From positions 806,001 to 870,000 of the forward strand of contig NZ_JANQBB010000001.1 of the NCBI RefSeq assembly GCF_024721975.1: 64,000 nt of DNA, written 5' to 3'. Positions within the stretch are counted from its first letter, which is position 1, and the number at the start of each line of letters is the position of its first letter. Under the pieces are notes generated by a model. The model was not told the DNA's origin. It saw nothing but the letters and a program-made list of their open reading frames with translations, and did not search any database. Shown in pieces: positions 2,621-20,131 of the stretch. The DNA is from Paenibacillus endoradicis. Lineage in GTDB: Bacteria > Bacillota > Bacilli > Paenibacillales > Paenibacillaceae. Position numbers and translations under genes: made by a program.

Positions 2621-2674
2621 TTGACGCTTACATAAAAGGGTGATATATTTCTATTAATTAGTTTAGTAAACTAA
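2621..2674 (+). promoter_or_regulatory. SigA promoter with ROK (XylR-like) operator before the transporter gene
   Basis: The -35 TTGACG (2621-2626) and -10 TATATT (2644-2649) are 17 bp apart. Eight bases later lies TTAGTTTAGTAAACTAA (2658-2674), a palindrome with only the central base unpaired. It resembles XylR-type ROK operators (TTAGTTT...AAACTAA) and recurs at 5502 and 13075. Its position at the start site implies repression by the ROK protein encoded at 4210-5382. The stretch 2340-2620 upstream shows no gene or other feature. Confidence 0.8.
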
Positions 2675-2733
2675 TCAATTAGAGAGAGATAGAGTTTATA
2701 CTTCTATTTCACAAAATTATTGGGGGAATGACA

Positions 2734-5458: not shown

Positions 5459-5522
5459 TTGACAAAAGGAAATAGAATTGATAAATTGATTATATAATTA
5501 ATTAGGTTACTAAACAAACTAA
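5459..5522 (+). promoter_or_regulatory. Promoter with ROK operator before uxaC
   Basis: The -35 TTGACA (5459-5464) and a weak -10 TAAATT (5482-5487) are 17 bp apart. The downstream inverted repeat TTAGGTT-N7-AAACTAA (5502-5522) is a wider-spaced version of the sites at 2658 and 13075. Being between divergent genes, it may also autoregulate the ROK gene. Confidence 0.65.
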
Positions 5523-5572: not shown

Positions 5573-6976
5573 ATGGAGAAATTTATGAATGATTATTTTA
5601 TGTTATCCAATGAAACTGCTAAACAATTATATGATGACGCAGCAAAAAATGCTCCGATTTTCGATTTTCATTGTCACCTCGATCCTGAGCAGGTATGGGT
5701 AAACAAATCATACAGCAATATGACTGAGATATGGCTGGCAGGTGATCATTACAAATGGCGTGCGATGCGTATGCATGGTATTGGAGAAAGATATATTACA
5801 GGGGATGCTTCCGATTGGGAAAAATTCAAAGCATGGGCAGAGACAGTTCCTTATTTGTTAGGAAACCCGTTGTATCATTGGACTCATTTAGAATTGAAAA
5901 AATACTTTGATATTGATTTGCTGCTTAGTCCTGAAACAGCAGAGCAAATTTGGAATGACTGTAATGCAAAACTTCAACAAGATGATTACCGCGCAAGATC
6001 ATTTATAGAGAAATCCAATGTGAAGTTTATTGGAACGACAGATGATCCATTATCAGATCTTAAGTATCATCAATTGTTAGCCGAAGATGATTCGTTTGAT
6101 ACGATTATTGCACCAACATTCAGGCCCGATGGCGCTTTGAATATTGATGCTCCTACATTCTCTACATGGGTTAAACAGCTAGAAGAGATAACAGGAAACA
6201 GTATTGCGTCATTAAACGATTTTGTAACTGCCTTAAAAGAACGTGTTAATTATTTCCATGAACATGGTGGAAGAGCATCCGATCACGATATACCATTCTT
6301 AATCTATCGTGCAGTAGAAGAAACTGAGGCTGAAACTATTTTCCTGAAAAGATTGCAAGGTTCATCGTTAGATGAACAGGAAATTATCTCCTATCGTGCA
6401 TACTTGATCACTGAGCTAGGCAAGATGTATGCAGAGAAGCAATGGGTTATGCAACTCCATATGGGAGCGATTCGCAACAATAACACCAAGTTGTTCCGTC
6501 AATTAGGTAAAGATGCTGGATTCGATTCTGTAGGCGAAAGTAATTTTGCTGAAGGTGTCTCCAAATTACTGGACGGTTTAGAGTTACAAGATGCATTACC
6601 TCGTACAATTCTTTATAACTTGAACCCGAAAGATAATGCTGTTCTTACTGGAATGTTAGGCAATTTCTATGAAGAAGGTATTCCTAGTAAAGTGCAATTT
6701 GGTTCAGGTTGGTGGTTTAACGACCACATAGACGGGATGGAGAAACAAATGCGAGATCTAGCTAATGTTGGATTACTGACACATTTTGTCGGAATGTTGA
6801 CCGATTCTCGTAGCTTCCTATCTTATACTAGACATGAGTACTTCCGCAGAATATTGTGTAATATGTTCGGACAATGGGTAGAGAGTGGATTGATTCCAAA
6901 CAATAAAGAATTTAACAATAAAATTATAGCTGATATTTGTTATGGTAATGCTCATCGATATTTCCTAGACAGATAG
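5573..6976 (+). CDS. uxaC: Uronate isomerase (glucuronate/galacturonate isomerase)
   Basis: 467 residues, the normal length of UxaC, an amidohydrolase-fold enzyme that converts D-glucuronate to D-fructuronate and D-galacturonate to D-tagaturonate in the cytoplasm. The metal-binding strand motif [13 protein letters not shown] lies at about residues 30-42, and [10 protein letters not shown] and [16 protein letters not shown] are conserved UxaC segments. The ATG at 5573 follows AAGGAGGAT. It heads a two-gene operon with gnd (61-bp gap) under a ROK-operator promoter. In most bacteria uxaC sits with uxaA/uxaB or uxuA/uxuB; here mannonate dehydratase is missing and gluconate-branch genes take its place (see findings). 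Confidence 0.95.
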
Positions 6977-7037
6977 ATACAAGCACGAAAAGAAACAAAG
7001 CATGAATCGAAAGAATAACTTTAAGGAGAGAACTATC

Positions 7038-8450
7038 ATGTCAAAACAACAAATTGGTGTAATTGGATTAGCAGTAATGGGCAAAAATTTAGCATTAAAT
7101 ATTGAGAGTAGAGGATATACCGTTGCTGTATTCAATCGTTCATACGATAAAACAGAGCAATTTTTACAAGAAGAAGCCAAAGGTAAACAATTTATCGGCG
7201 CAAAAACGATGGAAGAGTTTGTTGCATCATTAGAATCACCTCGTAAGATTTTATTAATGGTGCAGGCTGGTAAAGCTACAGATGCAACAATTGATGCATT
7301 GAAACCGTTGCTTGATAAAGGTGATATTATTATCGATGGTGGAAATACTTATTTCCAAGATACAATTAGACGTAATGCTGAATTGCAAGAACTAGGTTTC
7401 AACTTCATCGGTACAGGCGTTTCTGGTGGTGAAGAAGGCGCATTAAAAGGACCTTCTATTATGCCAGGAGGCAAGGAAGAAGCCTACGAATTGGTACGTC
7501 CAATTCTAGAAGCGATATCTGCTAAAGTTGGTTCTGATGCTTGTTGTACGTACATCGGACCTAATGGTGCAGGTCATTATGTGAAAATGGTGCATAACGG
7601 AATCGAGTATGGTGATATGCAGCTTATCTCTGAAGCCTATTACATCTTGAAAAACGTGTTGAATCTGAACGCTGATGAGCTGGCAGAAGTGTTCCAAGAG
7701 TGGAATAACGGAGAACTAGACAGCTATCTAATTGAGATCACAGCTGATATCTTCCGCAAAAAAGATGAAGAAACAGGTCAACCGTTAGTAGACGTTATTC
7801 TTGATAAAGCTGGACAAAAAGGAACAGGAAAATGGACAAGTCAAAATGCACTTGATCTAGGAGTACCGCTTCCGATTATTACAGAGTCCGTATTTGCTCG
7901 TTACATTTCAGCACTTAAAGATGAGCGTATTGTAGCTAGTCAAAAACTTACTGGCCCAGAAGCTACTTCATTTGACGGAGATCGTGCTGCTTTGATTGAA
8001 CAAGTTCGTAAAGCGTTATTCTTAAGTAAAATTTGTTCATATGCTCAAGGTTTTGCGCAAATGCGTACTGCATCTGAAGAATATGATTGGAATCTTCGTT
8101 ACGGAGATATTGCAATGATTTTCCGTGGTGGCTGTATTATCCGCGCACAATTCTTGCAACAAATTAAAGACGCATATGATGCTGAGCCAGCACTTGCTAA
8201 CTTACTGCTTGATCCATATTTCAATAATATTGCGGCGAACTATCAATCAGCTTTGCGTGATGTTGTATCTATTGCAATTCAAAAAGGTATTCCTGTACCT
8301 GGATTTGCTAGCGCAATCAACTACTATGATAGCTACCGCGCAGAGACATTACCAGCAAACTTAATTCAAGCACAACGTGATTACTTTGGTGCTCATACGT
8401 ACGAGCGTAAGGATAAAGCAGGTACTTTCCATACACAATGGATGGTATAG
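7038..8450 (+). CDS. gnd: 6-phosphogluconate dehydrogenase, decarboxylating
   Basis: 470 residues, a standard-length Gnd/GntZ. It oxidatively decarboxylates 6-phosphogluconate to ribulose 5-phosphate and CO2 with NAD(P)+. Visible: Rossmann [13 protein letters not shown] near the N-terminus, [31 protein letters not shown] and [15 protein letters not shown], which carry substrate-binding and catalytic Lys/His/Glu residues. The start is the ATG at 7038, preceded by AAGGAGAG; the longer frame from 7002 would read through that site. Its place directly behind uxaC, rather than in a pentose-phosphate locus, ties it to the gluconate exit of the uronate route. A second housekeeping copy may exist elsewhere. 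Confidence 0.95.
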
Positions 8451-8520
8451 AAATTATATAGAGATACCATTGGATAGATTAGTGAGAAATCTTCATTTGT
8501 GCGAAAGATATCAATAATGT

Positions 8521-8560
8521 AGAGCCATTTCAAAGTGTCATGACACTTTGAAATGGCTCT
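8521..8560. terminator. Bidirectional terminator between gnd and the AraC gene
   Basis: A perfect 40-base inverted repeat, AGAGCCATTTCAAAGTGTCA followed by its reverse complement. Confidence 0.85.
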
Positions 8561-8581
8561 ATTTGCTTAAAGACTCTACCC

Positions 8582-9808
8582 TCATTGGCGATATTGATGT
8601 GGGGTAACTTCATAGTGCTTCTTGAACACTTTAATAAAGTAATTCACATCATTATAGCCTACCATATGCGAGATATCTGTAATGGATAGGTTTTCATTGT
8701 TCATCAGCTGTAGCGCTTCCTTCAGTCTTATATGGTGAATGTAATCGGGGAAGGTTAGGCCAGTTTCCTTCTTAAAAGATCTAGACAATTCATACTTGTT
8801 AATCCCCACCTCGTGAGCAACTATAGCCAGTGTTATTTCATCGGTTAGATGCCATCTGATGTATTCTAGTGCTTTACGAATGAGTGGAGAGTAGGCGCTT
8901 AGCGATAACTGCTGTACTAATTTACAATATTCCAAGCACATATTGTCTTGGAGTAATTCGAGTTGTTTAATACTAGTAGTCTTTTCAATTTGAATTGCAA
9001 ATTTTTCTGAAATGCTATCGATATATATTGGATGGACCCCGCCGTTTTCAGTTGCTTTGCGAAGAAGAGTATTTCTTACGAAGCTTAAATTTTTTCTTGA
9101 TCGGAGTGGATCATTAGGGAAGCGATCAGGTAATGGATATTTGGGTTGATCGTCTTTAATTAATAATTGCTCTACTAATGATAAATTACCCTGCTGGACA
9201 GCTCCTATCAAATTGTTCTCGTTACGGTAACGCTCTTCAACAATATGTTTTTTCTCGATGTTCTCAATTGGAGACGACAAGGAGTTATTTGAAGTGATAT
9301 AGTTTTTGCTCTCAATAGTTACATGCGACTTAGAAGATAGAGATGAATGTTGGAATATATATTGGATGAACTCAATAATATGATTGAGCTTTTCATTGCT
9401 TATTAATGGTAATGACAAATAATATTGCTGAATCAATGATAATAACGAAAGAGGCCACTGATGTTGGAAAAGTATATCTTGTACTTGAATCATGGAAGGG
9501 TCTGTTTGTAGAAAAGGACCAACGATCATTGTACCTTTTTCTTGATCATTAAGTTGAAGAAAAACTGTAATATATAACAATTGCTGTGTGGTGGTATTTA
9601 CATGAATATGATACTCATTCTTATCAGTTTGAAGCAGTATATTAGAACGAACTGCTTCAAATAGATACTGCAGCGGTTCAGGTATATGCATTGGTCCATA
9701 AGCCATCACCATTTTGTGATTAGCATCCATATAAATTGTTTCCATGTCTGAAAATGTATAGGTAAACTTCAAAAGTTGATCTAACTGTTGTACTTGTGCA
9801 GGGATCAT
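8582..9808 (-). CDS. AraC family transcriptional regulator
   Basis: 408 residues. The C-terminal ~100 residues form the double HTH of AraC/XylS proteins: ALEYIRWHLTDEITLAIVAH, the ELSRSFKKETGLTF helix, then the second HTH with LSITDISHMVGYNDVNYFIK and FKKHYEVTPHQYRQ. The N-terminal ~170 residues resemble a PAS-like sensor seen in some Paenibacillus AraC proteins but cannot be named with certainty. It is divergent from the TIM-barrel/Gfo-Idh operon, whose promoter has a -10 but no good -35, the usual picture for an AraC-activated promoter, so it is the likely activator of that operon. The inducer is unknown. Confidence 0.85.
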   Translation of the reverse strand: MIPAQVQQLDQLLKFTYTFSDMETIYMDANHKMVMAYGPMHIPEPLQYLFEAVRSNILLQTDKNEYHIHVNTTTQQLLYITVFLQLNDQEKGTMIVGPFLQTDPSMIQVQDILFQHQWPLSLLSLIQQYYLSLPLISNEKLNHIIEFIQYIFQHSSLSSKSHVTIESKNYITSNNSLSSPIENIEKKHIVEERYRNENNLIGAVQQGNLSLVEQLLIKDDQPKYPLPDRFPNDPLRSRKNLSFVRNTLLRKATENGGVHPIYIDSISEKFAIQIEKTTSIKQLELLQDNMCLEYCKLVQQLSLSAYSPLIRKALEYIRWHLTDEITLAIVAHEVGINKYELSRSFKKETGLTFPDYIHHIRLKEALQLMNNENLSITDISHMVGYNDVNYFIKVFKKHYEVTPHQYRQ

Positions 9809-9875
9809 ATAATCAATTCCTTTAAGTAGTTTTAATAATATATCAACATTTTACTATTTAACGCAATAATATGCG

Positions 9876-9904
9876 AGTAATATAAAGCGTTTTCTTTTAT
9901 ACTG
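9876..9904 (+). promoter_or_regulatory. Probable AraC-activated promoter of the TIM-barrel operon
   Basis: TATACT at 9899-9904 is a good -10, while the base positions 16-18 bp upstream match no -35 consensus, suggesting an activator-dependent promoter. The overlapping AAAGCGTTTTCT (around 9885-9896) is cre-like with at least two mismatches and is only a weak hint of CcpA control. Confidence 0.4.
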
Positions 9905-9919
9905 AACTTATTCAATAAA

Positions 9920-10009
9920 AATAAAAAGTTAGCTTATGCTTTCGATGTACTTTTTATTTTAGAAGTATTTCTAGTCGTAGAATCAATAAAAATAAAAAGT
10001 TTTAGGAGA
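9920..10009 (+). promoter_or_regulatory. Repeated leader element, copy 1 (candidate cis-regulatory RNA)
   Basis: Lies between the predicted start site and the first operon gene. The arms AATAAAAAGT (9920-9929) and ACTTTTTATT (9949-9958) can form a 10-bp helix enclosing TGCTTTCGATGT. A second AATAAAAAGT (9991-10000) directly abuts the ribosome binding site TTTAGGAGAG and could pair with the same ACTTTTTATT. Compared with the larE copies, one helix position is A-T here and G-C there on both strands, a compensatory change. Confidence 0.55.
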
Positions 10010-10010
10010 G

Positions 10011-10907
10011 ATGGAGTTGTATAATGACAAGCTACACATATCTGGATTCTCGGATGAAATCTCATCTGACTTTGTAACTCAATTGCAAGCTGTTCGAAAG
10101 CTTGATATGAATTATTTATCATTACGTGGTATTGATGGACGAAATATTGGTGATTACTCGCTTGAAGAGATTCAAGAAAAGGTGTTGCCGAAGTTAAATG
10201 AATATAAGGTCGCTGTATCTTCAATAGGATCACCTATTGGGAAAATCTTTATTACCGATGATGAAGGATTTACGAAACAACTTGATCTACTAGATCGTTT
10301 ATGTCAAATTTCGAATTTGTTAGATTGTAAATACATTCGAATTTTTAGTTTTTACATTCCTAAAGGTGAAGAAGCAGATCAATACCATAATAAAGTAATC
10401 TCACAAATAAGCCAATTTGCAGCAATCGCTGCAAAGTATAATGTCACCTTGCTCCATGAGAATGAAAAAGATATTTTTGGTGATATCGCTAGACGTTGTA
10501 ATGAGATGTTAGTGGAGGTTAATTCACCTTATTTCAAAGCGATATTCGATTTTGCGAATTTTGTCCAATGTGGTGAAGATACTTGGAATTGTTATCAGTT
10601 ATTAAAACCTCATATAGAGTACATTCATATTAAAGATGCAGTTTCAACTAGTCAACAGAACGTCGTATGCGGTACTGGGGAAGGGAAGATTAAAACTATT
10701 CTAGCTGATCTTATTGATAAGGGTTATGAAGGCTTCCTGACATTAGAGCCTCATCTAGTATTATTCGATTCGTTGAAAGACTTAGAGCTAGAAGCCGCTG
10801 AAGATATTATTAAAGAAGATAAAGGTTTAACTGGAGAAGAAGCATATGCATTACAATTCCATGCACTAGTTGACATACTACAATCTATTGAGAGTGAGGC
10901 AAAGTAA
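10011..10907 (+). CDS. Sugar phosphate isomerase/epimerase-like TIM-barrel protein
   Basis: 298 residues of the AP-endonuclease-2/xylose-isomerase-like TIM barrel. Visible are the first strand (ISGFSDEIS), metal-ligand-type HENEKD in the middle, FDFANFVQCG, HIKDA and LTLEPHL, the spaced Glu/Asp/His residues that bind a divalent metal in this superfamily. Such proteins are isomerases, epimerases, dehydratases or, as in DgpC/CarC-type enzymes, lyases of 3-keto-glycosides; the exact reaction is unknown. AGGAG ends only two bases before the ATG at 10011, so the in-frame TTG at 10017 may be the true start. First gene of a three-gene operon with the Gfo/Idh and second TIM-barrel genes. Confidence 0.8.
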   Translation: MELYNDKLHISGFSDEISSDFVTQLQAVRKLDMNYLSLRGIDGRNIGDYSLEEIQEKVLPKLNEYKVAVSSIGSPIGKIFITDDEGFTKQLDLLDRLCQISNLLDCKYIRIFSFYIPKGEEADQYHNKVISQISQFAAIAAKYNVTLLHENEKDIFGDIARRCNEMLVEVNSPYFKAIFDFANFVQCGEDTWNCYQLLKPHIEYIHIKDAVSTSQQNVVCGTGEGKIKTILADLIDKGYEGFLTLEPHLVLFDSLKDLELEAAEDIIKEDKGLTGEEAYALQFHALVDILQSIESEAK

Positions 10908-10908
10908 T

Positions 10909-12051
10909 ATGACAAATGTAAGAATGGGAATTATCGGTGTCGGTGCACAAGGCGCAGCTTATGCACAATTTATAACTGAAGGTAAAGTGAAAAACATGGT
11001 GTTAGGTGCCCTTAGTGATGCTGACCCTGCTAGAAAGCAATGGGCTACTGACAACTATCCAGATGTTCCATTTTTCGATAATTATATCGATATGCTTGAT
11101 AGTGGCACGGTTGATGCAGTCGTTACATGTGTGCCTCATTTCTTACATCCTGAGATCGGAATTGCTGCACTGCAACGTGATATACATGCATTACTTGAGA
11201 AACCTGCAGGTGTATATACGAAGCAAGTAAGAGAATTGAATGAATATGCAAAAACCAAACCAGAAGTTGCTTTTGGAATTATGTTCAACCAACGTACTAA
11301 TCCTTTATATCAAAAATTGAAACAGCTAATTGATGATGGTGAGATTGGAGATATCCGTCGCACGAACTGGATGATTACAACATGGTGGAGACCACAAGGT
11401 TATTACGATCAAAGTGCATGGAGAGCAACGTGGAAAGGTGAAGGTGGTGGTGTTCTTGTTAATCAGGCGCCACATCAGCTTGATCTACTTCAATGGATTG
11501 CTGGTATGCCGTCTAAAGTTTATTCTAATGTGAAATATGGTTATCAACGTAACATATCTGTTGAAGACGAAGTTACTGTTATGATGGAGTATGCCAATGG
11601 TGCAACTGGTGTTTTCGTAACATGTACGCATGATATTGTGGGAACGGATCGTTTCGAGATATTAGGTGACAAAGGTAAAATTGTTGTTGACGATAGCAAG
11701 AAAATTACGATTAAACGACTAACCAAGCCTGAGCGTGAGATGAGTGATACGATGAGTATGGCTGACGTGATGAACATCTTTATGGGCGGGAAGTCAGACG
11801 ATATTTACTCTGAGGAAGTTATTGAATTTGAAAGTGTATGGGGAGCACAACATATTGCTGTATTTGAGAATTTCGCAGCACATATTGTCGAAGGTTCACC
11901 ACTGTTAGCTCCTGGAAGTGACGGTATTCATGGTGTGGCATTAGCGAATGCGATTCATCTTTCTAGTTGGTTCAACAAAGAAGTAGAGTTGCCAATAGAT
12001 GAAGAATTGTATTTGTCAGAATTGAATAAGAAGATCGCAGCTGAACAATAA
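10909..12051 (+). CDS. Gfo/Idh/MocA family NAD(P)-dependent oxidoreductase
   Basis: About 380 residues: an N-terminal Rossmann domain (GIIGVGAQGAAYA), the EKPAG motif at about residue 95, and the C-terminal beta-sheet domain with NQAPHQLDLLQW, where the His is the usual catalytic residue of this family. These enzymes oxidise or reduce a sugar or cyclitol hydroxyl. The start chosen is the ATG at 10909, one base past the upstream stop region; a longer frame overlaps the previous gene and has no ribosome binding site. The pairing with two TIM-barrel proteins recalls inositol catabolism and the DgpA/DgpC or 3-keto-glycoside systems; substrate not determinable. Confidence 0.87.
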   Translation: MTNVRMGIIGVGAQGAAYAQFITEGKVKNMVLGALSDADPARKQWATDNYPDVPFFDNYIDMLDSGTVDAVVTCVPHFLHPEIGIAALQRDIHALLEKPAGVYTKQVRELNEYAKTKPEVAFGIMFNQRTNPLYQKLKQLIDDGEIGDIRRTNWMITTWWRPQGYYDQSAWRATWKGEGGGVLVNQAPHQLDLLQWIAGMPSKVYSNVKYGYQRNISVEDEVTVMMEYANGATGVFVTCTHDIVGTDRFEILGDKGKIVVDDSKKITIKRLTKPEREMSDTMSMADVMNIFMGGKSDDIYSEEVIEFESVWGAQHIAVFENFAAHIVEGSPLLAPGSDGIHGVALANAIHLSSWFNKEVELPIDEELYLSELNKKIAAEQ

Positions 12052-12069
12052 TCTGAATGGAGTGAATAC

Positions 12070-12933
12070 GTGATGACGAAGCAATCGAAGATCGGTGTGC
12101 AAATGTTCAATTTGAAACAAAAAGTTGAAGAGTTAGGCGTATATGCAACACTTGAGAAATTACATGAATTAGGGTTTCATTCCGTTGAAGTGACGCAAAT
12201 TGCGATGACTTCAGAAAATGTAGCACAATTGAAAAAAGCTAGTGAAGATTTTGGTATTCAAATTGCAGCAGTATCTGCTCCATTGAACAAAGGTGCAAAC
12301 GATCCCGGAGAATCATTAGAAACTCATTTCGATAAAATAGTAAATGATTGCAAGGAACTAAAGTGTAAGTATATTCGAATCGGGATGATGCCCCTTGCCA
12401 TTATGGGACATAAAGATCAAGTGATGCAATATATTGCAGAAGCTGAAACTATGGCTCATCGTCTAGCAGAATATGAATTGGAACTTTATTATCATAATCA
12501 TCATGTTGAATTTGAGAAGTATGATGGAGAGTATCTCATTGATATGATGCGTAATCATACAACTAAGCTAGGGTTTGAACTTGATGTTCATTGGATTCAG
12601 CGTGGTGGAGAAAATCCTGTCGCAGTTATTAATCGCTTCAAAGATCGTATCGGATTATTGCATTTGAAAGATTATCGTATCGGAAGATTAGAAGTGGGCG
12701 AAGATGATCTTAAGGATATATCCAAATTCATGCAAAAATTTACTAACATTATTCAGTTTGCTGAATTGGGACAAGGCTCATTAGATATACCAGCAATAAT
12801 CGATGCAGGGATAGATAGTGGAGTCAAACACTTCTTCATTGAACAAGATGATACGAACGGTAGAGATCCTTTTGATTGTCTACAAGATTCCAAACAATAT
12901 CTAGTTAGACAAGGTTATGCTGATTGGATTTAA
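12070..12933 (+). CDS. Sugar phosphate isomerase/epimerase-like TIM-barrel protein (second copy)
   Basis: 287 residues of the same TIM-barrel superfamily as the protein at 10011 but clearly divergent from it. Conserved features are YYHNHHVEFE (residues ~139-148), FELDVHWIQRGG, LLHLKDYRIG and FAELGQGSLD, with a C-terminal IEQDD; these Glu/Asp/His positions fit a divalent metal site. The HNH...ELD..W pattern resembles the IolE/IolH or YcjR-like group. The start may be GTG at 12070 (7 bases after GGAG) or the adjacent ATG at 12073. Last gene of the operon, followed by a terminator. Function is inferred only as conversion or cleavage of a keto-sugar made by the Gfo/Idh enzyme. Confidence 0.8.
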   Translation: MMTKQSKIGVQMFNLKQKVEELGVYATLEKLHELGFHSVEVTQIAMTSENVAQLKKASEDFGIQIAAVSAPLNKGANDPGESLETHFDKIVNDCKELKCKYIRIGMMPLAIMGHKDQVMQYIAEAETMAHRLAEYELELYYHNHHVEFEKYDGEYLIDMMRNHTTKLGFELDVHWIQRGGENPVAVINRFKDRIGLLHLKDYRIGRLEVGEDDLKDISKFMQKFTNIIQFAELGQGSLDIPAIIDAGIDSGVKHFFIEQDDTNGRDPFDCLQDSKQYLVRQGYADWI

Positions 12934-12950
12934 TAATTAATTAAGCTTAA

Positions 12951-12991
12951 AAAGTATGTGGGAGCTGGTAAACTAGCGCTCACATACTTTT
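12951..12991 (+). terminator. Terminator of the TIM-barrel/Gfo-Idh operon
   Basis: AAAGTATGTGGGAGC and GCTCACATACTTT arms with a short T-run. Confidence 0.75.
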
Positions 12992-13037
12992 ATGCTATAC
13001 AGATAGTAATAAATAGCCCTAAATAGCAATTATCGCG

Positions 13038-13091
13038 TTGACGTATAGGGTATCCAATGATATTATTTAATTAATTAGTTTACTATACTAA
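13038..13091 (+). promoter_or_regulatory. SigA promoter with ROK operator before the larA homologue
   Basis: The -35 TTGACG (13038-13043) and -10 TATTAT (13061-13066) are 17 bp apart, with TTAGTTTACTATACTAA (13075-13091) eight bases beyond the -10. Spacing and operator copy the transporter promoter at 2621-2674 almost exactly, so the same ROK repressor probably controls both. Confidence 0.8.
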
Positions 13092-13184
13092 TTAATAGAC
13101 AAAAGTAATTATTTGCTTTAATACATGCAAGTTACTTATTTGGTAAAATTATAAATAAAACATACGAAATGGAGTGATATATTT

Positions 13185-14453
13185 ATGGGTATTCTTCAAG
13201 AGCTTGTAAAAAATATTCCTGTTCCAAAAATGGCAAAAGTAAAGGTTACTTTTGATAATAGTCATATTGATAACTTGAGTGAACAATTGTTAGTAAAATT
13301 AGAACGTGATGAAATTGTTCATCAGATTAAACCAGGTATGGAAATCGCGATTGCAGTTGGTAGTCGTGGTCTTGATCGTCTTGTTGAATTAACGAAATGC
13401 ACAGTGCAATTTCTACAAGATCATGGAGCAAAACCTTTCATCGTACCTAGTATGGGAAGTCATGGTGGCGCTACGGCTGAAGGACAAAGCGAAGTTCTTG
13501 CGCATCTAGGTGTAACAGAAGAAACTGTTGGTTGTGAGATTCGTTCTTCGATGGAAGTTGTGAAGTTAGGTGAACTGCCTAATGGTCTTCCTGTCTACGT
13601 AGACCAATATGCTGCAAGTGCAGACGGGATTGTAGTTATTAATCGTATTAAACCACATACTGCATTCCGTGGTCCAGTTGAGAGCGGCATTATGAAAATG
13701 ATTAGTATCGGACTTGGAAAACAAAAAGGTGCTGAAGCTTGTCACCAACTTGGTTTCAAATATATGGCTGAAAATGTTCCCGCGATGGCGAAAATGATTA
13801 TGGCAGAAAAACCAATATTGTTCGGTGTTGCGACAGTTGAAAATGCGTTTGATAAAGTGGCGGTCGTTGAAACATTAACACCAGCAGAGATTATCGAGAA
13901 AGAAGCTAGCTTGCAAGTACAAGCAAAAGCATTGTTACCGAAATTATTTTTCGAACAATTAGAAGTGCTTGTCATTGATCAAATTGGCAAAAACATTAGT
14001 GGTGATGGTATGGACCCTAATATTACAGGGCGCTATCCTACTCCTTATGCTCATGGCGGTCCTGATGTTAATAAAATGGTTGTACTTGATCTTACACATG
14101 AGACCGAAGGAAATGCGAACGGCGTAGGTACGGCAGATTTTACAACGCAACGTCTAGTAGACAAAATGAACCTTGAAGTAACTTATGCGAACGGACTTAC
14201 TTCTACTGTAGTTGCACCTACAAAGATCGCTACTACTTTAGCCAATGATAAAGAAACAATACAAGCAGCGATTAAGACTAGTAACATTCTCGATTTTACA
14301 GAAGTGAAAATGGTTCGCATTAAAAATACATTAGTCTTAAGTGAAATTGAAGTATCAGAAGCACTAATTGACTATGTAAACCAACATCCACAGATGGAAG
14401 TTGTATCTCCATTGTTTGACTTACCTTTCGATGATAAAGGGAATTTGTGGTAG
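13185..14453 (+). CDS. LarA-family nickel-pincer hydroxyacid racemase/epimerase (predicted mannonate/gluconate 2-epimerase)
   Basis: 422 residues of the DUF2088/LarA superfamily, which uses the nickel-pincer nucleotide (NPN) cofactor to move hydride at the alpha-carbon of 2-hydroxyacids. The LarA active-site layout can be followed: R61, H93 (GSHGG), H158 (KPHTAF), K171 (ESGIMKM; the cofactor-tethering Lys) and H187 exactly 16 residues later as in LarA K184/H200, and Q266/K269 three apart as in LarA Q295/K298. It is therefore not a degenerate member. The neighbours argue against lactate: SDR mannonate oxidoreductase, gluconokinase, Gnd and UxaC. Mannonate and gluconate are C2 epimers, and gluconate-epimerising LarA homologues (GntE) are known. 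Substrate is inferred. ROK-operator promoter; first gene of the operon with the SDR. Confidence 0.85.
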   Translation: MGILQELVKNIPVPKMAKVKVTFDNSHIDNLSEQLLVKLERDEIVHQIKPGMEIAIAVGSRGLDRLVELTKCTVQFLQDHGAKPFIVPSMGSHGGATAEGQSEVLAHLGVTEETVGCEIRSSMEVVKLGELPNGLPVYVDQYAASADGIVVINRIKPHTAFRGPVESGIMKMISIGLGKQKGAEACHQLGFKYMAENVPAMAKMIMAEKPILFGVATVENAFDKVAVVETLTPAEIIEKEASLQVQAKALLPKLFFEQLEVLVIDQIGKNISGDGMDPNITGRYPTPYAHGGPDVNKMVVLDLTHETEGNANGVGTADFTTQRLVDKMNLEVTYANGLTSTVVAPTKIATTLANDKETIQAAIKTSNILDFTEVKMVRIKNTLVLSEIEVSEALIDYVNQHPQMEVVSPLFDLPFDDKGNLW

Positions 14454-14482
14454 TAAATATAACAACTAAGGGAGAGATTATA

Positions 14483-15253
14483 ATGAGTAAATTATTCGAC
14501 TTAACAGGCAAAACAGCAGTAGCTATTGGTGGTAATAGTGTGTTGGGTTCTTCTATTGCTCATGGATTAGCCGAACATGGAGCAAAAGTAGCTATCGTTG
14601 GTCGTAACATGGAAAAAGCAGAAGAAGTAGTAAAAGCTATCGTTGACAACGGTGGAGTAGCAAAAGCTTTCCAAGCGAATGTTAGTGAGCGTGAATCTTT
14701 ACTACAAGTAGCGACCGACATTGAAGCTTGGTCAGGTGGTTGGGACATTTTATTGAATGCACCAGGTAAGAATAGCAGTACACCTTTTCTTGAACTAGAA
14801 ATGGATGAGTACGATGATATTATGGATGTTAACTTAAAAGGTATCATTCAAGCATGTCAAATTTTCGCTCAGAAAAATATTGAGCAGCAACGTTCTGGTA
14901 GCATTATCAATATTTCATCTGTTTCTTCAACAACACCACTTTCTAGAGTGTTTACGTATTCCGTTTCTAAAGCAGCTTTGAACAGTGCAACACAATATTT
15001 GGCAAAAGAGTTTGCACTTCATAATATTCGTGTTAATGCACTTATTCCTGGCTTCTTCCCAGCGGAACAAAATCGTAAAATTTTAAACCCTGATCGCATA
15101 GAATCAATAATGAAGCACACGCCAATGCAACGCTTTGGAACACCTGAAGAATTACAAGGTGCAGCAATATGGCTTGCTTCAGAACAAGCATCAAGCTTCG
15201 TAACAGGGGCATTGATTCGAGTAGATGGCGGATTCGGAAGCATGACTATTTAA
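14483..15253 (+). CDS. SDR oxidoreductase, predicted fructuronate reductase / D-mannonate oxidoreductase (UxuB-like)
   Basis: 256 residues, classical short-chain dehydrogenase. It starts MSKLFDLTGKTAVAIGG; the cofactor loop GGNSVLGSSIAHGLA, the catalytic Ser in INISSVSS, and the YSVSK catalytic Tyr/Lys are in place, and it ends with the usual VTGALIRVDGGF. The start is the ATG at 14483 after GGGAGAG; the longer frame overlaps the larA homologue's stop. B. subtilis UxuB (YjmF) is an SDR of this type, and position between uxaC-linked genes and gluconokinase suggests reduction of fructuronate to mannonate with NAD(P)H. A gluconate 5-dehydrogenase-like role is the main alternative. It is co-transcribed with the larA homologue (29-bp gap). 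Confidence 0.85.
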   Translation: MSKLFDLTGKTAVAIGGNSVLGSSIAHGLAEHGAKVAIVGRNMEKAEEVVKAIVDNGGVAKAFQANVSERESLLQVATDIEAWSGGWDILLNAPGKNSSTPFLELEMDEYDDIMDVNLKGIIQACQIFAQKNIEQQRSGSIINISSVSSTTPLSRVFTYSVSKAALNSATQYLAKEFALHNIRVNALIPGFFPAEQNRKILNPDRIESIMKHTPMQRFGTPEELQGAAIWLASEQASSFVTGALIRVDGGFGSMTI

Positions 15254-15267
15254 TGATGCAAGAAATA

Positions 15268-15308
15268 AATGAAAAGTTTTAGTGAATGCTTTCGATGTAC
15301 TTTTCATT
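15268..15308 (+). promoter_or_regulatory. Repeated leader element, copy 2
   Basis: AATGAAAAGT (15268-15277) and ACTTTTCATT (15299-15308) form a perfect 10-bp helix around a loop that contains the conserved TGCTTTCGATGT. It is the first of two tandem copies upstream of larE. Confidence 0.55.
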
Positions 15309-15331
15309 GCAGAGTTGGTAATCTATAAGTA

Positions 15332-15413
15332 AATGAAAAGTTAGGTATTTGCTTTCGAAGTACTTTTCATCACGAAGTCGTTATTCAAGAAGTACTTGAA
15401 AAGTTGGAGGAGG
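15332..15413 (+). promoter_or_regulatory. Repeated leader element, copy 3, next to the larE ribosome binding site
   Basis: AATGAAAAGT (15332-15341) pairs with ACTTTTCATC (15362-15371) around a loop with TTGCTTTCGAAGT. A further TGAAAAGT (15397-15404) sits directly before the GGAGGAGG ribosome binding site and could compete for the same ACTTTTCA, giving two exclusive folds. Confidence 0.55.
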
Positions 15414-15417
15414 AGAA

Positions 15418-16224
15418 ATGATGCTGACAGCGAAATATGAAAAGCTACAATCTATTTTGCGAGAAATGCAAAGTGTTGTTGTTGCATTTTCTGGTGGGGT
15501 AGATAGTACATTTTTGTTAAAGGCAGCCGTAGACACATTAGGTAGCGATCATGTTATTGCTGTTACGGCAGATTCAGAGACATATCCTTCGAGTGAATTA
15601 GAAGAAGCGAGAGAACTAGCGTCTCTTATTGGAGCTACACATGTAGTTATCGAAACTTCCGAGTTAGCGATTCCAGGGTATTCAGAAAATAATAAAAATA
15701 GATGTTACTTTTGTAAAAGTAGTTTATTCGATCATATACTACCAATTCTTGAAGAGAGAAATTACAAAAATATTATATACGGTGTAATCGCCGATGATCA
15801 GAATGAGCATCGTCCAGGTATGCAAGCTGCGAAGGAACGTGGCGTTAGAGGTCCACTACTTGAAGCAGAACTTTATAAAACAGAAATAAGAGAGTTATCC
15901 CAATCCGCAAACTTACCTACTTGGTCGAAGCCTTCTTTTGCTTGTTTATCATCACGTATCGCATATGGTGAACAGATTACGAATGAGAAGTTACAAAAGA
16001 TTGATGCTTCTGAACGTTATCTGAAATCATTAGGTATTCGCCAAGTAAGGGTTCGTACTCACCAGGAGATTGCAAGAATTGAAGTGGAATTATCGGATAT
16101 GCCAATTCTTCTTGAAAATCATGAGGTAATCGTTGCACAATTACAGTATTATGGATATAAATATGTCACAATGGATCTATTAGGATACCAAAGTGGCAGT
16201 ATGAACAAAGTACTCGCACTTTAA
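15418..16224 (+). CDS. larE: LarE, ATP-dependent sulfur insertase for nickel-pincer cofactor synthesis
   Basis: 268 residues of the PP-loop ATPase family; the PP-loop SGGVDST is at residues 25-31. LarE adenylates the carboxylated pyridinium nucleotide made by LarB and converts its two carboxylates to thiocarboxylates. Cysteines lie at C96 and C99 (RCYFCK) and C176 (FACLSSR). The CxxC plus downstream Cys pattern is that of LarE proteins which hold a [4Fe-4S] cluster and use it for sulfur transfer, rather than the L. plantarum type, in which a single cysteine gives up its own sulfur. Start at the first of two ATGs (15418 or 15421) behind GGAGGAGG. It follows the SDR gene and two copies of the repeated leader element. 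Confidence 0.92.
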   Translation: MMLTAKYEKLQSILREMQSVVVAFSGGVDSTFLLKAAVDTLGSDHVIAVTADSETYPSSELEEARELASLIGATHVVIETSELAIPGYSENNKNRCYFCKSSLFDHILPILEERNYKNIIYGVIADDQNEHRPGMQAAKERGVRGPLLEAELYKTEIRELSQSANLPTWSKPSFACLSSRIAYGEQITNEKLQKIDASERYLKSLGIRQVRVRTHQEIARIEVELSDMPILLENHEVIVAQLQYYGYKYVTMDLLGYQSGSMNKVLAL

Positions 16225-16242
16225 AGTAACTATAAAGTACTG

Positions 16243-16280
16243 AATAATAAAAACCACTATTCGCTGTGGTTTTTATTATT
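16243..16280 (+). terminator. Terminator (or attenuator) between larE and the gluconokinase gene
   Basis: AATAATAAAAACCAC and GTGGTTTTTATTATT arms with a GC core and T-rich 3' side. It ends 37 bases before the kinase start and lies inside what otherwise looks like one gene cluster, so it may set the ratio of upstream and downstream expression. Confidence 0.75.
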
Positions 16281-16317
16281 CATGTTCATAGACATATATC
16301 TGAAAGGAAGATCAGCA

Positions 16318-17790
16318 ATGGGAAGGCAACTTGTAATAGGAATTGATCTAGGAACAACGAGTGTAAAAGCGTGCGCATTTCAGACCGACGGTCATGTGAT
16401 AGCTGAAGTTGAAGAGATGACTAAGACGGAATACCCCAAGCAAGGTTACGCCCAGCAAGATGTTGAACTTATTGAACGCTCTTCAGTCTTAGCGCTTAAA
16501 CGATTGATCGCAGAGGCTAATATTATTGAAGGGGAGCTCTTGGCTATTTCCTTCTCAGCAGCAATGCACTCTCTAGTATGTATTGATGAATCAGGTACAC
16601 CGATTTCACCACTCCTTACATGGGCAGATGGTCGAAGCACAGATCAAGTTAAAGCGTTATCAGATGTGGACAAACAACATTACTATGAGATAACAGGAAC
16701 TCCTGTACATCCTATGACTCCGTTTACTAAGCTACTTTGGATGAAAGAAACTAACTATGCTCCTTATCTTGCAGCAACTTACTTTATGTCTGCCAAGGAA
16801 TATATTATATATAAATGGTTTGGTAAGCGTTTGATTGATTATGCAATGGCTTCGGCGACAGGTCTTTTTAATCCGAATACGCTGCAATGGGAACCAACAT
16901 TACTACAACTAACGAATATTGTTAGCGATCAATTATCAACAATCGTTGAACCGACAACTATTCTTACGGAACTAAGTTCTGATATTGCAAAAGAAGTGGG
17001 GATTTCAGCTTCAGTTCCTTTCGTTATTGGCTCTGCAGATGGTCAACTTGCTAATCTAGGTAGTGGTGCAATATTACCTGGTGAAGTTGCTATTTCTGTA
17101 GGTACAAGTGGTGCTATTCGTCAATTCACTTCATCGTTCCAAGTAAGTGAGACACAATCTACATTCTGTTATTCATTTAGCAGTGATTCCTTCATTGTAG
17201 GTGGTCCGACAAACAACGGTGGCGTTGTCTTACAATGGACAAAAGATCTATTACAATATGATGGTGATTTTGCTGCATTTATATCCGAATCAGAGAAATC
17301 TGAAATTGGTTCAGAGGGGCTAGTATTTCTGCCTTATTTGAATGGGGAACGAGCACCATTATGGGATCAAGCAGCGAAAGGTAATTTCTATGGCTTATCA
17401 ATATCGCATCGACGTGAACATCTTATTAGAGCGGTATTAGAAGGAATTACTTTAAATCTATATCAAATAGGCAACGCTCTTGAACAATCGATTGGGCCAA
17501 CTCATAAAGTTTTTGTTAATGGTGGATTATCAAGATCACCGGTATGGTTACAAATGTTAGCGGATATATTCAATGCAGAGATATACGTATCTGAAAGTCA
17601 CAATGGTGCCGCTTGGGGAGCTTCATGGACAGCACTAGTTGCGCTTGGATATGCATCATCTTTTGAAGATATTAAAAACTATACTCCTATGAATGAACCA
17701 GTCGTTCCGATTGCTGAAAATAGTGAGAAATATAAAGCGATTTATGAAAAGTACATTTCTGTACAGCAAGTCGTTGCACAACTATTTTAA
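16318..17790 (+). CDS. gntK: Gluconokinase (FGGY family carbohydrate kinase)
   Basis: 490 residues. The ATPase N-terminus GIDLGTTSVKACAF is followed by YPKQGYAQQDVE, SFSAAMHSLVCID, LLTWADGRS and TGTPVHPMTPFTKLLWM. The last block is characteristic of B. subtilis-type GntK rather than xylulokinase, and the C-terminal lobe has VFVNGGLSRSPVWLQ with a catalytic Asp region (SADGQLANLG). It phosphorylates D-gluconate to 6-phosphogluconate, the substrate of the Gnd encoded at 7038. The start is the ATG at 16318 behind AAAGGAAG; the frame from 16282 lies inside the terminator region. Its location between larE and larB is strong contextual support for gluconate as the product of the local LarA homologue. 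Xylulokinase is the alternative. Confidence 0.85.
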   Translation: MGRQLVIGIDLGTTSVKACAFQTDGHVIAEVEEMTKTEYPKQGYAQQDVELIERSSVLALKRLIAEANIIEGELLAISFSAAMHSLVCIDESGTPISPLLTWADGRSTDQVKALSDVDKQHYYEITGTPVHPMTPFTKLLWMKETNYAPYLAATYFMSAKEYIIYKWFGKRLIDYAMASATGLFNPNTLQWEPTLLQLTNIVSDQLSTIVEPTTILTELSSDIAKEVGISASVPFVIGSADGQLANLGSGAILPGEVAISVGTSGAIRQFTSSFQVSETQSTFCYSFSSDSFIVGGPTNNGGVVLQWTKDLLQYDGDFAAFISESEKSEIGSEGLVFLPYLNGERAPLWDQAAKGNFYGLSISHRREHLIRAVLEGITLNLYQIGNALEQSIGPTHKVFVNGGLSRSPVWLQMLADIFNAEIYVSESHNGAAWGASWTALVALGYASSFEDIKNYTPMNEPVVPIAENSEKYKAIYEKYISVQQVVAQLF

Positions 17791-17809
17791 TGTCAATAAT
17801 ATATTAATG

Positions 17810-17871
17810 CTTCCGAAGTACTTTTCATTAACACGAAGTATAATTGAAAGCTATATGAAAAGTTTTAGGAG
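17810..17871 (+). promoter_or_regulatory. Repeated leader element, copy 4, before larB
   Basis: Conserved GCTTCCGAAGTACTTTTCATT (arm 17820-17829) with ATGAAAAGT at 17855-17863, directly before the TTTAGGAG ribosome binding site. The matching upstream arm ATGAAAAGT (17744-17752) lies within the end of gntK. The loop differs from other copies by T to C in the CTTnCGAAG mini-hairpin. Confidence 0.5.
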
Positions 17872-17876
17872 TGATG

Positions 17877-18650
17877 ATGTTGCTAGAAGATATATTGAAA
17901 CAAGTACAAAATGGACAATTAACTATAGATGCAGCGAAGCAACAATTAAGTGCTTTCGAAGATTTAGGCTTTGCTAAAGTTGATCATGATCGCAAGAAGC
18001 GACAAGGATTTCCTGAAATCATTTATGGGGAAGGCAAAAGTTCAGAGCAGATTATTGCGATAGCTAATGCGATGCTACTTAGAAACGATCAAGTGCTTAT
18101 TACACGCATTACAGCAGATAAGGCTAGTGAAGTGCAGCAATCGATTCCACAAATGGTCTATCATGCCGAGGCGCGTATTTTATACTGGGTGCAAGATTTT
18201 CTCAAAAAAGATCAATCAAAACAATATATTGCTATTGTTGCAGCAGGCACATCAGATATAGCTGTAGCTGAAGAAGCAGCTGTAACAGCTGAGGTGCTTG
18301 GATGCCCTGTACATCGTATATACGATGTAGGTGTCGCTGGCATTCACCGCTTATTATTCCATGCGGAAGAAATTCAAAATGCGGTAGCCTCAGTTGTCGT
18401 TGCTGGTATGGAAGGTGCTTTACCAAGTGTTGTTGGAGGATTAGTTTCTCATCCAGTGATAGCAGTACCAACAAGTGTTGGCTACGGTGCTAATTTCAAT
18501 GGTCTATCAGCATTATTAACGATGTTAAATTCTTGCGCTTCCGGTATTAGCGTAGTAAATATAGATAACGGGTTTGGCGGAGGATATAATGCCGCGTTAA
18601 TTCATAAACTCAGCGAGAGAGGTCAATATAATGAAAACACTTTATCTTGA
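17877..18650 (+). CDS. larB: LarB, pyridinium-3,5-biscarboxylate mononucleotide synthase
   Basis: About 257 residues. The C-terminal two thirds are a PurE-like domain (IVAAGTSDIAVAEEAAVTAE; GMEGALPSVVGGLV; PTSVGYGANFNGLSAL), preceded by the typical LarB N-terminal region with GFPEIIYGEGK. LarB carboxylates and hydrolyses nicotinic acid adenine dinucleotide to the biscarboxylated nucleotide, the first step of NPN cofactor synthesis. AGGAG at 17867-17871 fits the ATG at 17877 best; GTG 17871 and ATG 17874 are other in-frame options. The 3' end overlaps larC1 by 20 bases, so the two are translationally coupled. Confidence 0.93.
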   Translation: MLLEDILKQVQNGQLTIDAAKQQLSAFEDLGFAKVDHDRKKRQGFPEIIYGEGKSSEQIIAIANAMLLRNDQVLITRITADKASEVQQSIPQMVYHAEARILYWVQDFLKKDQSKQYIAIVAAGTSDIAVAEEAAVTAEVLGCPVHRIYDVGVAGIHRLLFHAEEIQNAVASVVVAGMEGALPSVVGGLVSHPVIAVPTSVGYGANFNGLSALLTMLNSCASGISVVNIDNGFGGGYNAALIHKLSERGQYNENTLS

Positions 18651-19626
18651 TTGTATAAATGGAATCAGTGGAGATATGTTTATCGGAGCATTAATTGATG
18701 CTGGCGCTGATGCAACAATAATGCAAGAAGAGCTGAAAAAGCTTAACATACATGATGAATACACATTATCATGGGTAAAAGTTATTAAAAATGGTATTTC
18801 AAGCACGAAATTTGATGTGCATTTGGTGAATGAGCATAGTCACGAGCATGATCACGATCATGGACATAGTCACAGTCATGAGCATACACATGATCACGAC
18901 CATGGACATAGTCACAGTCACGAGCATACACATGATCACGATCATGGGCATAGTCACAGTGATGAGCATACACATGATCATGAACATGGACATAGTCACT
19001 CGCACGAGCATACACACGATCATGGACACAGTCACAGTGATGAGCATACAAGTCACACACACGATCATAGCCATAGCCATGGGCATGGGAACAGTCACAC
19101 TCATGATCATTCTCATGACCATCGCTCATACAAAGATATTGTGAGTATGATCGAAAAGTCACAATTGTCTGAAGTTGTGAAAGATACTTCATTACGCTTG
19201 TTCCGAAAAATTGGAGAGGCGGAAGGGTTAATTCATGGACTTCCTCTAGTTAAGGTTCATTTTCATGAAGTAGGTGCTGTAGATTCGATCATTGATATCG
19301 TTGGAGCAGCAATTTTACTTGAACAACTTCAAATTGAAGTTATCAAATCATCATCAGTTCCAGTTGGCAATGGAAAGATTCATATCGATCATGGTATTTA
19401 TCCTGTTCCCGCTCCCGCTACATTAGAGATTATGCGAGGCGTTCCAATTGAACAGTCAGATCTTCGCTCTGAATTAACTACTCCTACTGGTGCCGCTTTT
19501 GTTGCAGTACTTGTTAAAGAGTTTGGTAATCTACCGTCAATGAAAGTTCAAACAGTTGGTTATGGAGCGGGTACAAAAACCTTCCCTAAACACCCTAATG
19601 TACTTAGAGTCATAATTGGTGAGTAG
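18631..19626 (+). CDS. larC1: LarC1, N-terminal part of the nickel-insertion protein LarC, with long His-rich tract
   Basis: 331 residues. The LarC N-terminal domain begins MKTLYLDCINGISGDMFIGA and resumes at about residue 166, with VHFHEVGAVDSIIDIVGAA and TPTGAAFVAVLV. Between them, residues 69-164 are an alternating His/Asp/Ser/Glu/Gly/Thr region with about 45 histidines, far longer than usual, probably a nickel store or nickel-delivery arm. LarC uses CTP to insert nickel into the dithiocarboxylated nucleotide. The reading frame stops at 19624-19626 without the C-terminal domain, which is encoded separately downstream. Overlaps larB by 20 bases. Confidence 0.92.
   Translation: MKTLYLDCINGISGDMFIGALIDAGADATIMQEELKKLNIHDEYTLSWVKVIKNGISSTKFDVHLVNEHSHEHDHDHGHSHSHEHTHDHDHGHSHSHEHTHDHDHGHSHSDEHTHDHEHGHSHSHEHTHDHGHSHSDEHTSHTHDHSHSHGHGNSHTHDHSHDHRSYKDIVSMIEKSQLSEVVKDTSLRLFRKIGEAEGLIHGLPLVKVHFHEVGAVDSIIDIVGAAILLEQLQIEVIKSSSVPVGNGKIHIDHGIYPVPAPATLEIMRGVPIEQSDLRSELTTPTGAAFVAVLVKEFGNLPSMKVQTVGYGAGTKTFPKHPNVLRVIIGE
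18832..19125 (+). repeat. Degenerate tandem repeat coding for the LarC1 His tract
   Basis: Roughly 42-bp units encoding HGHSHSHEHTHDHD, repeated several times with later units shortened or altered (SDEH, SHTH). Built of CAT/CAC-rich hexanucleotides, so prone to slippage and length change. The many ORFs seen here on both strands in other frames are artefacts of the repeat. Confidence 0.85.
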
Positions 19627-19660
19627 TACACCATTGTCTTAATAGGAGGGAGTGAAACGG

Positions 19661-20131
19661 ATGGAGAAAAATCATCCACCATCGCATGAGCATGTCGATG
19701 ATCAAATGTATAAGTTAGAAGTTAACTTAGATGATATTCCAGGCGAATGGCTAGGTTATGTGATGGATTTACTTCTTAATAACGGAGCAAATGATGTATA
19801 TTATACACCGATATTTATGAAGAAAAATAGGCCGGGGACATTATTACAACTACTTTGTTCTATTGATAAATTAGATGCTATGAAAGATATTTTGTTTCGT
19901 GAAACAACAACTCTAGGTATCAGATATTACCCTTTGACGGTACATCGCTTAGAGCGAGATTATGAACAAGTGGAAACTGAATGGGGCACGATCAACGTCA
20001 AGAAAGGATTCTATAATGGACAACTCGTTCAATGGGCTCCTGAATACGAAGATTGTAAAGCAATCGCGACATCTCATCAAATTCCACTTAAAGAAGTGTA
20101 CGCTGCCGTTAGAAGACATGAAACTCGTTAA
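19661..20131 (+). CDS. larC2: LarC2, C-terminal part of the nickel-insertion protein LarC
   Basis: 156 residues with the LarC C-terminal signature YKLEVNLDDIPGEWLGYVMD and YYTPIFMKKNRPGTLLQ. In L. plantarum, larC1 and larC2 are joined by programmed frameshifting. Here larC2 has its own AGGAGGG (19644-19650) and ATG at 19661, it is in the +1 frame relative to larC1, and a TAA at 19640-19642 closes that frame before larC2 begins. So a shift near the larC1 stop could not give a fusion, and the halves are probably two subunits. An in-frame GTG at 19652 is too close to the ribosome binding site. Last gene of the cluster. Confidence 0.9.
   Translation: MEKNHPPSHEHVDDQMYKLEVNLDDIPGEWLGYVMDLLLNNGANDVYYTPIFMKKNRPGTLLQLLCSIDKLDAMKDILFRETTTLGIRYYPLTVHRLERDYEQVETEWGTINVKKGFYNGQLVQWAPEYEDCKAIATSHQIPLKEVYAAVRRHETR

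Follow-up and report, generated by a model that had tools for sequence, protein, structure and literature searches.

How could a bacterium dispose of the fructuronate made by its glucuronate isomerase when the gene cluster concerned contains no mannonate dehydratase? This question is raised by a locus of Paenibacillus endoradicis lying in a stretch of 64,000 nucleotides (contig NZ_JANQBB010000001.1, positions 806,001 to 870,000 of the forward strand), hereafter called the window, whose own coordinates are used below. The canonical hexuronate pathway proceeds through UxaC, UxuB, UxuA, KdgK and KdgA. Its first two steps have their like in the window locus, whereas the branch that passes through mannonate dehydratase and 2-keto-3-deoxygluconate is not seen there. 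The locus carries a homologue of LarA (LarAH), genes for the nickel-pincer (NPN) cofactor, a short-chain dehydrogenase/reductase (SDR), a kinase of the FGGY family and a 6-phosphogluconate dehydrogenase (Gnd). It is probably a nickel-dependent hexuronate operon that leads from glucuronate through mannonate, gluconate and 6-phosphogluconate to ribulose 5-phosphate.

Taken as a whole, the proposed route can be viewed as follows. A GPH symporter would take up glucuronate or glucuronides and UxaC would convert glucuronate into D-fructuronate, which the SDR would reduce to D-mannonate. LarAH, which belongs to group 22 of the NPN isomerases, would then invert C2 of D-mannonate to give D-gluconate, using a nickel-pincer cofactor supplied by LarB, LarE and LarC1/C2, so that the route would depend on nickel in the cell. 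The FGGY kinase would phosphorylate D-gluconate to 6-phosphogluconate, and Gnd would turn the latter into ribulose 5-phosphate, CO2 and NADPH. A ROK protein would repress the promoters of the transporter, uxaC and larA through a common palindrome. A preliminary description of this DNA expected the route to yield a gain of NAD(P)H; since the reductase would spend one NAD(P)H and Gnd would return one NADPH, the net redox balance would be zero.

The gene set listed in that description was recovered entirely from open reading frames (ORFs) and family models, all of its members being on the + strand. Two genes lie upstream, uxaC (5573..6976; glucuronate isomerase, PRK02925 with 629.7 bits for a cutoff of 387, and PF02614) and gnd (7002..8450; NADP-dependent, TIGR00873 with 760.5 bits for a cutoff of 426.7). 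LarAH (13185..14453; NF052515, 547.2 bits, cutoff 400; Pfam Lar_N, 34.2 bits, cutoff 23.3) is followed by the SDR, a proposed fructuronate reductase (14447..15253), larE (15418..16224; sulfur transferase for the NPN cofactor, TIGR00268, 357 bits, cutoff 150), the FGGY kinase, proposed to act on gluconate or mannonate (16282..17790), larB (17871..18650; NPN cofactor biosynthesis, NF033503, 301.8 bits, cutoff 175) and two genes for nickel insertion, larC1 (18631..19626; TIGR00299, 216.1 bits, cutoff 90) and larC2 (19652..20131; C-terminal part in a frame different from that of larC1, NF052512, 152.3 bits, cutoff 50). The reported absence of uxuA, kdgK and kdgA from the window holds as well: no such family was found among the 44 window ORFs, most of the gene-sized ones, that were scanned with Pfam. 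A tblastn search of the window with the UxuA of a relative gave only a 44-residue match (E = 0.95). The tagaturonate epimerase gene uxaE was not named among the window ORFs scanned, no dedicated search having been made for it.

Conservation of these genes in relatives supports a functional unit. The loci compared are the best 80 of 240 stretches that encode a relative in a collection of genome contigs; the 80 have a LarAH of 75–85% identity and were read with at most 10 kb of flank, less where the contig was shorter. An SDR (at least 60% identical) is found immediately 3′ of LarAH in 77 of the 80 (78 if the distant SDR of locus L007 is included), which leads us to reject accidental linkage. 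The same loci encode LarE (74/80), LarB (69/80), the FGGY kinase (68/80), UxaC (42/80) and Gnd (42/80), and a ROK gene is located 5′ of LarAH in 63. The uxaC gene is immediately upstream in 23/80, and 54 of the 72 loci with more than 9 kb of upstream flank harbor uxaC or gnd. Gene order and spacing vary among the relatives, indicating that they do not derive from one recently copied island.

A second arrangement involves the same partners. In a sister clade of LarAH (clade B, about 56–68% identity) that is common in Paenibacillales, most of the loci read are organized as LacI-LarAH-GntK-SDR-Gnd. One of them, L168, is a single GPH-LacI-LarAH-GntK-SDR-Gnd-UxaC cluster, and L167 carries LarAH-SDR-uxaC. 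The kinase of L145, the sole clade-B kinase scanned, clears the TIGR01314 gntK equivalog cutoff (660.3 versus 648.55 bits) and shares 38% identity with the window kinase; two different kinases are therefore paired with the same types of LarAH, SDR and Gnd. Among 40 long loci with a group-22 LarAH, partly chosen by genome content rather than at random, those whose LarAH is at least 59% identical carry the SDR in 29/29 cases and gnd in 24/29, versus 0/11 for both genes where identity is at most 53%; in this latter group, L159 only has a distant SDR, 29% identical to a canonical UxuB. In the tree, a sugar-acid clade gathers 62 of the 73 rows with a support of 100/99, and the 11 rows from other contexts fall outside. 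Reductase, LarA-family epimerase, kinase and Gnd are found as one conserved unit, as in the module of the Thermotoga type. Four loci (L131, L133, L142 and L143, from genomes G102, G111, G105 and G088) are LacI-LarAH-SDR-Gnd operons, with GntK in three of the four, and their genomes have no uxaC match at all.

The association extends to whole genomes. In 229 genomes of Bacillales (the order of G003, a Neobacillus), carriers being defined by a LarAH at least 69% identical and five matches of about 53% not being counted, UxaC was detected in 12/12 carriers of the window clade versus 52/217 other genomes (Fisher p = 1e-7; like all Fisher tests given here, this one is uncorrected for kinship, and uxaC often belongs to the same operon). 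In 246 genomes of Paenibacillales (the order of G001), in which the LarAH closest to that of the window is 85% identical, 117 encode a LarAH at least 56% identical; clade membership was assigned there by identity, the tree covering only part of these sequences. Among the 195 Paenibacillales genomes that carry uxaC, full-strength UxuA is missing from 20/91 with the clade versus 3/104 without it (p = 3e-5), and, among these 20 genomes, SDR and kinase stand beside LarAH in all 16 for which a long locus was read. UxuA exceeds the cutoff in 28 of 39 genomes with the LarAH clade of the window (a set that includes L007 and L009, which have no SDR beside LarAH) and is absent from 11; it is at full strength in 26, leaving 13 without. 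The idea that the locus bypasses mannonate dehydratase is therefore partly right but fails as a general claim, because these 26 genomes retain a full-strength UxuA. The link that was proposed between the uronate and gluconate branches fares better: co-conservation, the palindrome and the genome-level association assign LarAH to hexuronate breakdown, at a position framed by an SDR of the fructuronate-reductase type on one side and by a kinase of the gluconate type with Gnd on the other. As LarAH lies outside the described groups of gluconate epimerases, the reaction assigned to it is deduced from this context.

Judged by sequence, LarAH belongs firmly to NF052515, 'nickel pincer cofactor-dependent isomerase, group 22'. 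Its nearest homologue from a named source (97% identity) is that of Candidatus Pristimantibacillus lignocellulolyticus, from a genus of Paenibacillaceae (PMC9723784); that paper contains no mention of glucuron-, uronate, mannonate or nickel. The predicted structure of LarAH (pLDDT 93.4) displays the LarA two-domain fold, and residues R61, H93, H158, K171, H187 and K269 are invariant in 80/80 aligned sequences. LarAH retains the LarA-type set, i.e. two catalytic histidines (H93 and H158), the NPN lysine K171, the nickel-ligand histidine H187 and R61 as the counterpart of Arg75; K171 and H187 are 16 residues apart, as are K184 and H200 of LarA, equivalence being set by motif and spacing rather than by superposition. 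The LarA homologues with a single catalytic histidine share the LarA fold and similar carbohydrate contexts, but their second histidine is replaced by Asn (PMC12393405); LarAH retains H93 and H158 and is not of this type. An assignment to GntE (LarAH groups 18–20) was also ruled out, by sequence, profile and loop signature. The group-22 model is the sole group model that LarAH scores above cutoff, and GntE2 of Thermotoga maritima (4nar), which has the same fold and 14% identity, was not recovered from LarAH by sequence or profile search. Searches of the PDB for LarA relatives by sequence and profile returned only chance matches (one, none and three). In searches of one open-access library, no paper assigning a function to group 22 was found, and the main texts of PMC7583248 and PMC11770544 do not mention 'group 22'.

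Group 22 itself is broad. A match was found in Haloferax volcanii, the only one of 14 control genomes to have one, so that the group extends to haloarchaea. Single genomes can hold up to seven or more matches (at most seven candidates were scored). Paralogues in L135, L140, L149 and L144, 44–53% identical to the window LarAH, adjoin genes for TRAP transporters and/or 2-hydroxyacid-dehydrogenase-like proteins. Given these many paralogues in differing contexts, the family probably spans several substrates.

The preliminary description presented the pathway as undescribed, which the literature contradicts. In T. maritima, the genes gnd-uxaR-uxaE-uxaD-gntE-gntK have been described for hexuronate catabolism (PMC3750489), within a UxaR-regulated operon, aldH-pelB-gnd-uxaR-uxaE-uxaD-gntE-gntK (PMC3750489, PMC6978723, PMC7953866). 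As proposed for the window locus, a single regulated unit here combines Gnd and GntK with a fructuronate reductase and an epimerase of the LarA family that links mannonate and gluconate and, as in 26/39 genomes of the window clade, the UxuA route is retained in parallel. The two systems differ in their epimerase (group 20 for GntE of T. maritima, group 22 in the window) and their regulator (GntR-type versus ROK), and only the window locus includes uxaC and the lar cofactor genes. The D-gluconate 2-epimerases GntE1 and GntE2 (groups 19 and 20) epimerize mannonate and gluconate; the activity was measured for GntE2 and described as giving mannonate access to the pentose phosphate pathway (PMC7583248). 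Both enzymes share with the window LarAH the LarA fold, NPN-type residues and the reaction proposed here. A further GntE is known from Phytophthora (PMC11770544). LarAH10 of Megasphaera elsdenii also interconverts mannonate and gluconate although it falls outside the typical GntE group, possibly by convergence according to its authors; it is a broad racemase of hydrophobic 2-hydroxyacids, unlike the role proposed for the window LarAH (PMC11770544). In Lactobacillus suebicus, as proposed for the window, the upper isomerase pathway is joined to 6-phosphogluconate and its dehydrogenase in a redox-neutral manner; this route, known from extracts without genes, differs in the order of kinase and epimerase (PMC6978723). 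The pathway idea is therefore not new, and LarAH10 offers a precedent for a different LarA branch converging on its key step; the novelty lies in the implication of group 22.

The names of the SDR and of the kinase are those of the best-matching models and less firm than the preliminary description suggests. The SDR scores 262.9 bits with the mannonate-oxidoreductase model PRK08277 versus 204.6 bits with the gluconate-5-dehydrogenase models, and is 39% identical to an SDR that adjoins a canonical uxuA. TIGR01314 gntK is the top model of the FGGY kinase, whose closest PDB match is 3gbt, 'gluconate kinase'.

Several observations weigh against the proposed pathway. The SDR and the window kinase both fall beneath the curated cutoffs of these models (262.9 versus 281 and 426.4 versus 648.55 bits, respectively). 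LarAH lies outside the GntE groups, and its H158 is followed by T159 (80/80) and A160 (66/80), a pair unlike the GntE signature of E then V or S after the catalytic histidine (PMC7583248). The counterpart of LarA Asp72, placed by motif spacing three residues before R61, is V58, and homologues have V, A, S or C there, never Asp. Neither uxaC nor gnd is found in 18 of the 72 loci with more than 9 kb upstream, and UxaC has no match in 26/117 Paenibacillales carriers of the clade, some members of which must therefore work on a different input. In three clade-A loci whose tree rows are the closest to the window (L007, L009 and L012), the order is LarAH-larE-larB-larC, with no SDR or kinase beside it; L007 has an MFS transporter 5′ of the LarAH unit, and this arrangement is possibly a version for gluconate or mannonate uptake. 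The anticorrelation with UxuA in Paenibacillales drops to p = 0.013 when divergent UxuA-like genes (E < 1e-50) count as present and disappears (p = 0.12) when any UxuA match counts. In Bacillales, UxuA is absent from 6/12 carriers versus 14/52 other genomes with UxaC (p = 0.17, not significant), or 6/12 versus 10/47 when only intact uxaC is considered (p = 0.069). The strength of the anticorrelation thus depends on how the divergent UxuA-like proteins function or are classed. Those at L191:1531-2493 and L194:1937-2932 exceed the PRK03906 mannonate dehydratase cutoff and stay below the TIGR00695 uxuA equivalog cutoff; that at L192:833-1894 is below both.

The order of the middle steps could be the reverse of that proposed, the FGGY kinase phosphorylating mannonate and LarAH acting as a 6-phosphomannonate 2-epimerase that yields 6-phosphogluconate. 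This order was found in L. suebicus extracts, with no gene for it (Valk et al. 2020, PMC6978723), and would suit a window kinase that is below the gntK cutoff and distant from its clade-B counterpart. However, L145 combines the same gene set with a kinase of gluconokinase grade, and the substrates that PMC7583248 and PMC11770544 name for LarA homologues are unphosphorylated 2-hydroxy acids. As this kinase is a gluconokinase by equivalog cutoff and GntE2 acts on mannonate, an epimerase placed between reduction and phosphorylation is favoured, and phosphorylation of mannonate appears unlikely. If true, an enzyme so far met only in L. suebicus extracts would gain a gene. We likewise consider it unlikely that the group-22 members of the sugar-acid clade evolved independently into nickel hexonate 2-epimerases acting on the phosphorylated acid. 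They would then be the 6-phosphomannonate 2-epimerase that is missing, and fructuronate would have no other way out in those Bacillota that have uxaC and lack uxuA.

The substrate of LarAH might alternatively be a different hexonate, or an acid derived from uronates, with hexuronate flux passing through a UxuA encoded elsewhere in the genome and the operon serving a side substrate. The full-strength UxuA of many window-clade genomes, the carriers devoid of UxaC and an optional cassette inserted in the locus (see below) would all be in keeping with this. But a gluconate-type kinase and Gnd belong to the unit in two separate arrangements, and T. maritima, too, has kdgAK-uxuBA in addition to the operon with gntE, next to which these genes are retained (PMC3750489). 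Such a side role as the main function of LarAH is improbable.

Fructuronate is 5-keto-mannonate, and 5-keto-mannonate and 5-keto-gluconate are C2 epimers. LarAH could therefore act first and produce 5-keto-gluconate, which the SDR would reduce to gluconate as a gluconate 5-dehydrogenase, the name given to its closest PDB match, 1vl8 (E = 1.1e-44); UxaD of Thermotoga is presumably an SDR and the 1vl8 protein itself. This order is very unlikely, as the SDR scores higher with the mannonate-oxidoreductase model and UxaD, which is the reductase in the corresponding operon of Thermotoga, is termed a fructuronate reductase (PMC7953866).

The hexuronate operon proposed here would be controlled through a palindrome of which the window has two exact copies (TTAGTN7ACTAA; no strand assigned): TTAGTTTAGTAAACTAA, a putative ROK operator (2658..2674) 5′ of the GPH symporter gene, and TTAGTTTACTATACTAA (13075..13091) 5′ of LarAH. 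A variant (5502..5522, no strand) precedes uxaC. The symporter (2728..4143, +) belongs to the GPH family of glycoside/hexuronide:cation symporters (TIGR00792, 361.4 bits, cutoff 231), its second-best model being a glucuronide transporter below cutoff. The ROK-family repressor (4210..5382, -; PF00480, with NagC and Mlc as top models, both below cutoff) probably regulates the module. The preliminary description mentions neither of these two genes, nor the palindrome, nor the cassette described below. When one mismatch is allowed, the 80 relatives have sites within 300 bp upstream of GPH (8/10), uxaC (14/35), gnd (10/39), ROK (10/67) and LarAH (3/80), the background being 0.012 per 300 bp; sites located between divergent genes are scored for both, and a few of the GPH matches are weak homologues. 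Two of the listed sites (L032 and L055) appear off-pattern. The low count for LarAH would be explained by its location inside the operon in most relatives. No site precedes AraC (0/8), TIM1 (0/20), SDR (0/79) or FGGY (0/68), and larE and larB have one each. This distribution fits a control of the module by the ROK protein, with predicted binding to the palindrome, that excludes the AraC/TIM/Gfo cassette.

This optional cassette (8582-12933) separates gnd from LarAH in the window and encodes an AraC-type regulator (8582..9808, -; present in 8/80 relatives), a TIM-barrel sugar isomerase-like protein, TIM1 (10011..10907, +), a Gfo/Idh/MocA oxidoreductase (10870..12051, +) and a TIM-barrel IolE-like protein (12070..12933, +). 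TIM1 and Gfo are found upstream in only 21/80 relatives, and the cassette possibly processes glucuronides or an inositol-like substrate. LarC1 has a histidine-rich insert of about 100 residues with (H-S-H-E-H-T-H-D-H-D-H-G)-like repeats, which probably binds or stores nickel. Farther downstream, a DUF3626 protein (31160-32278; PF12294, 393 bits) has no assigned function.

These data provide a testable function for a large unassigned branch of the nickel-pincer family, the one present in the 117 of 246 Paenibacillales counted above. A redox-neutral route from hexuronates to the pentose phosphate pathway is also of interest for engineering. If the proposed pathway is true, distant LarA branches have been recruited to fill the same pathway gap, and nickel can be a requirement for glucuronate use in many Bacillota of the soil.

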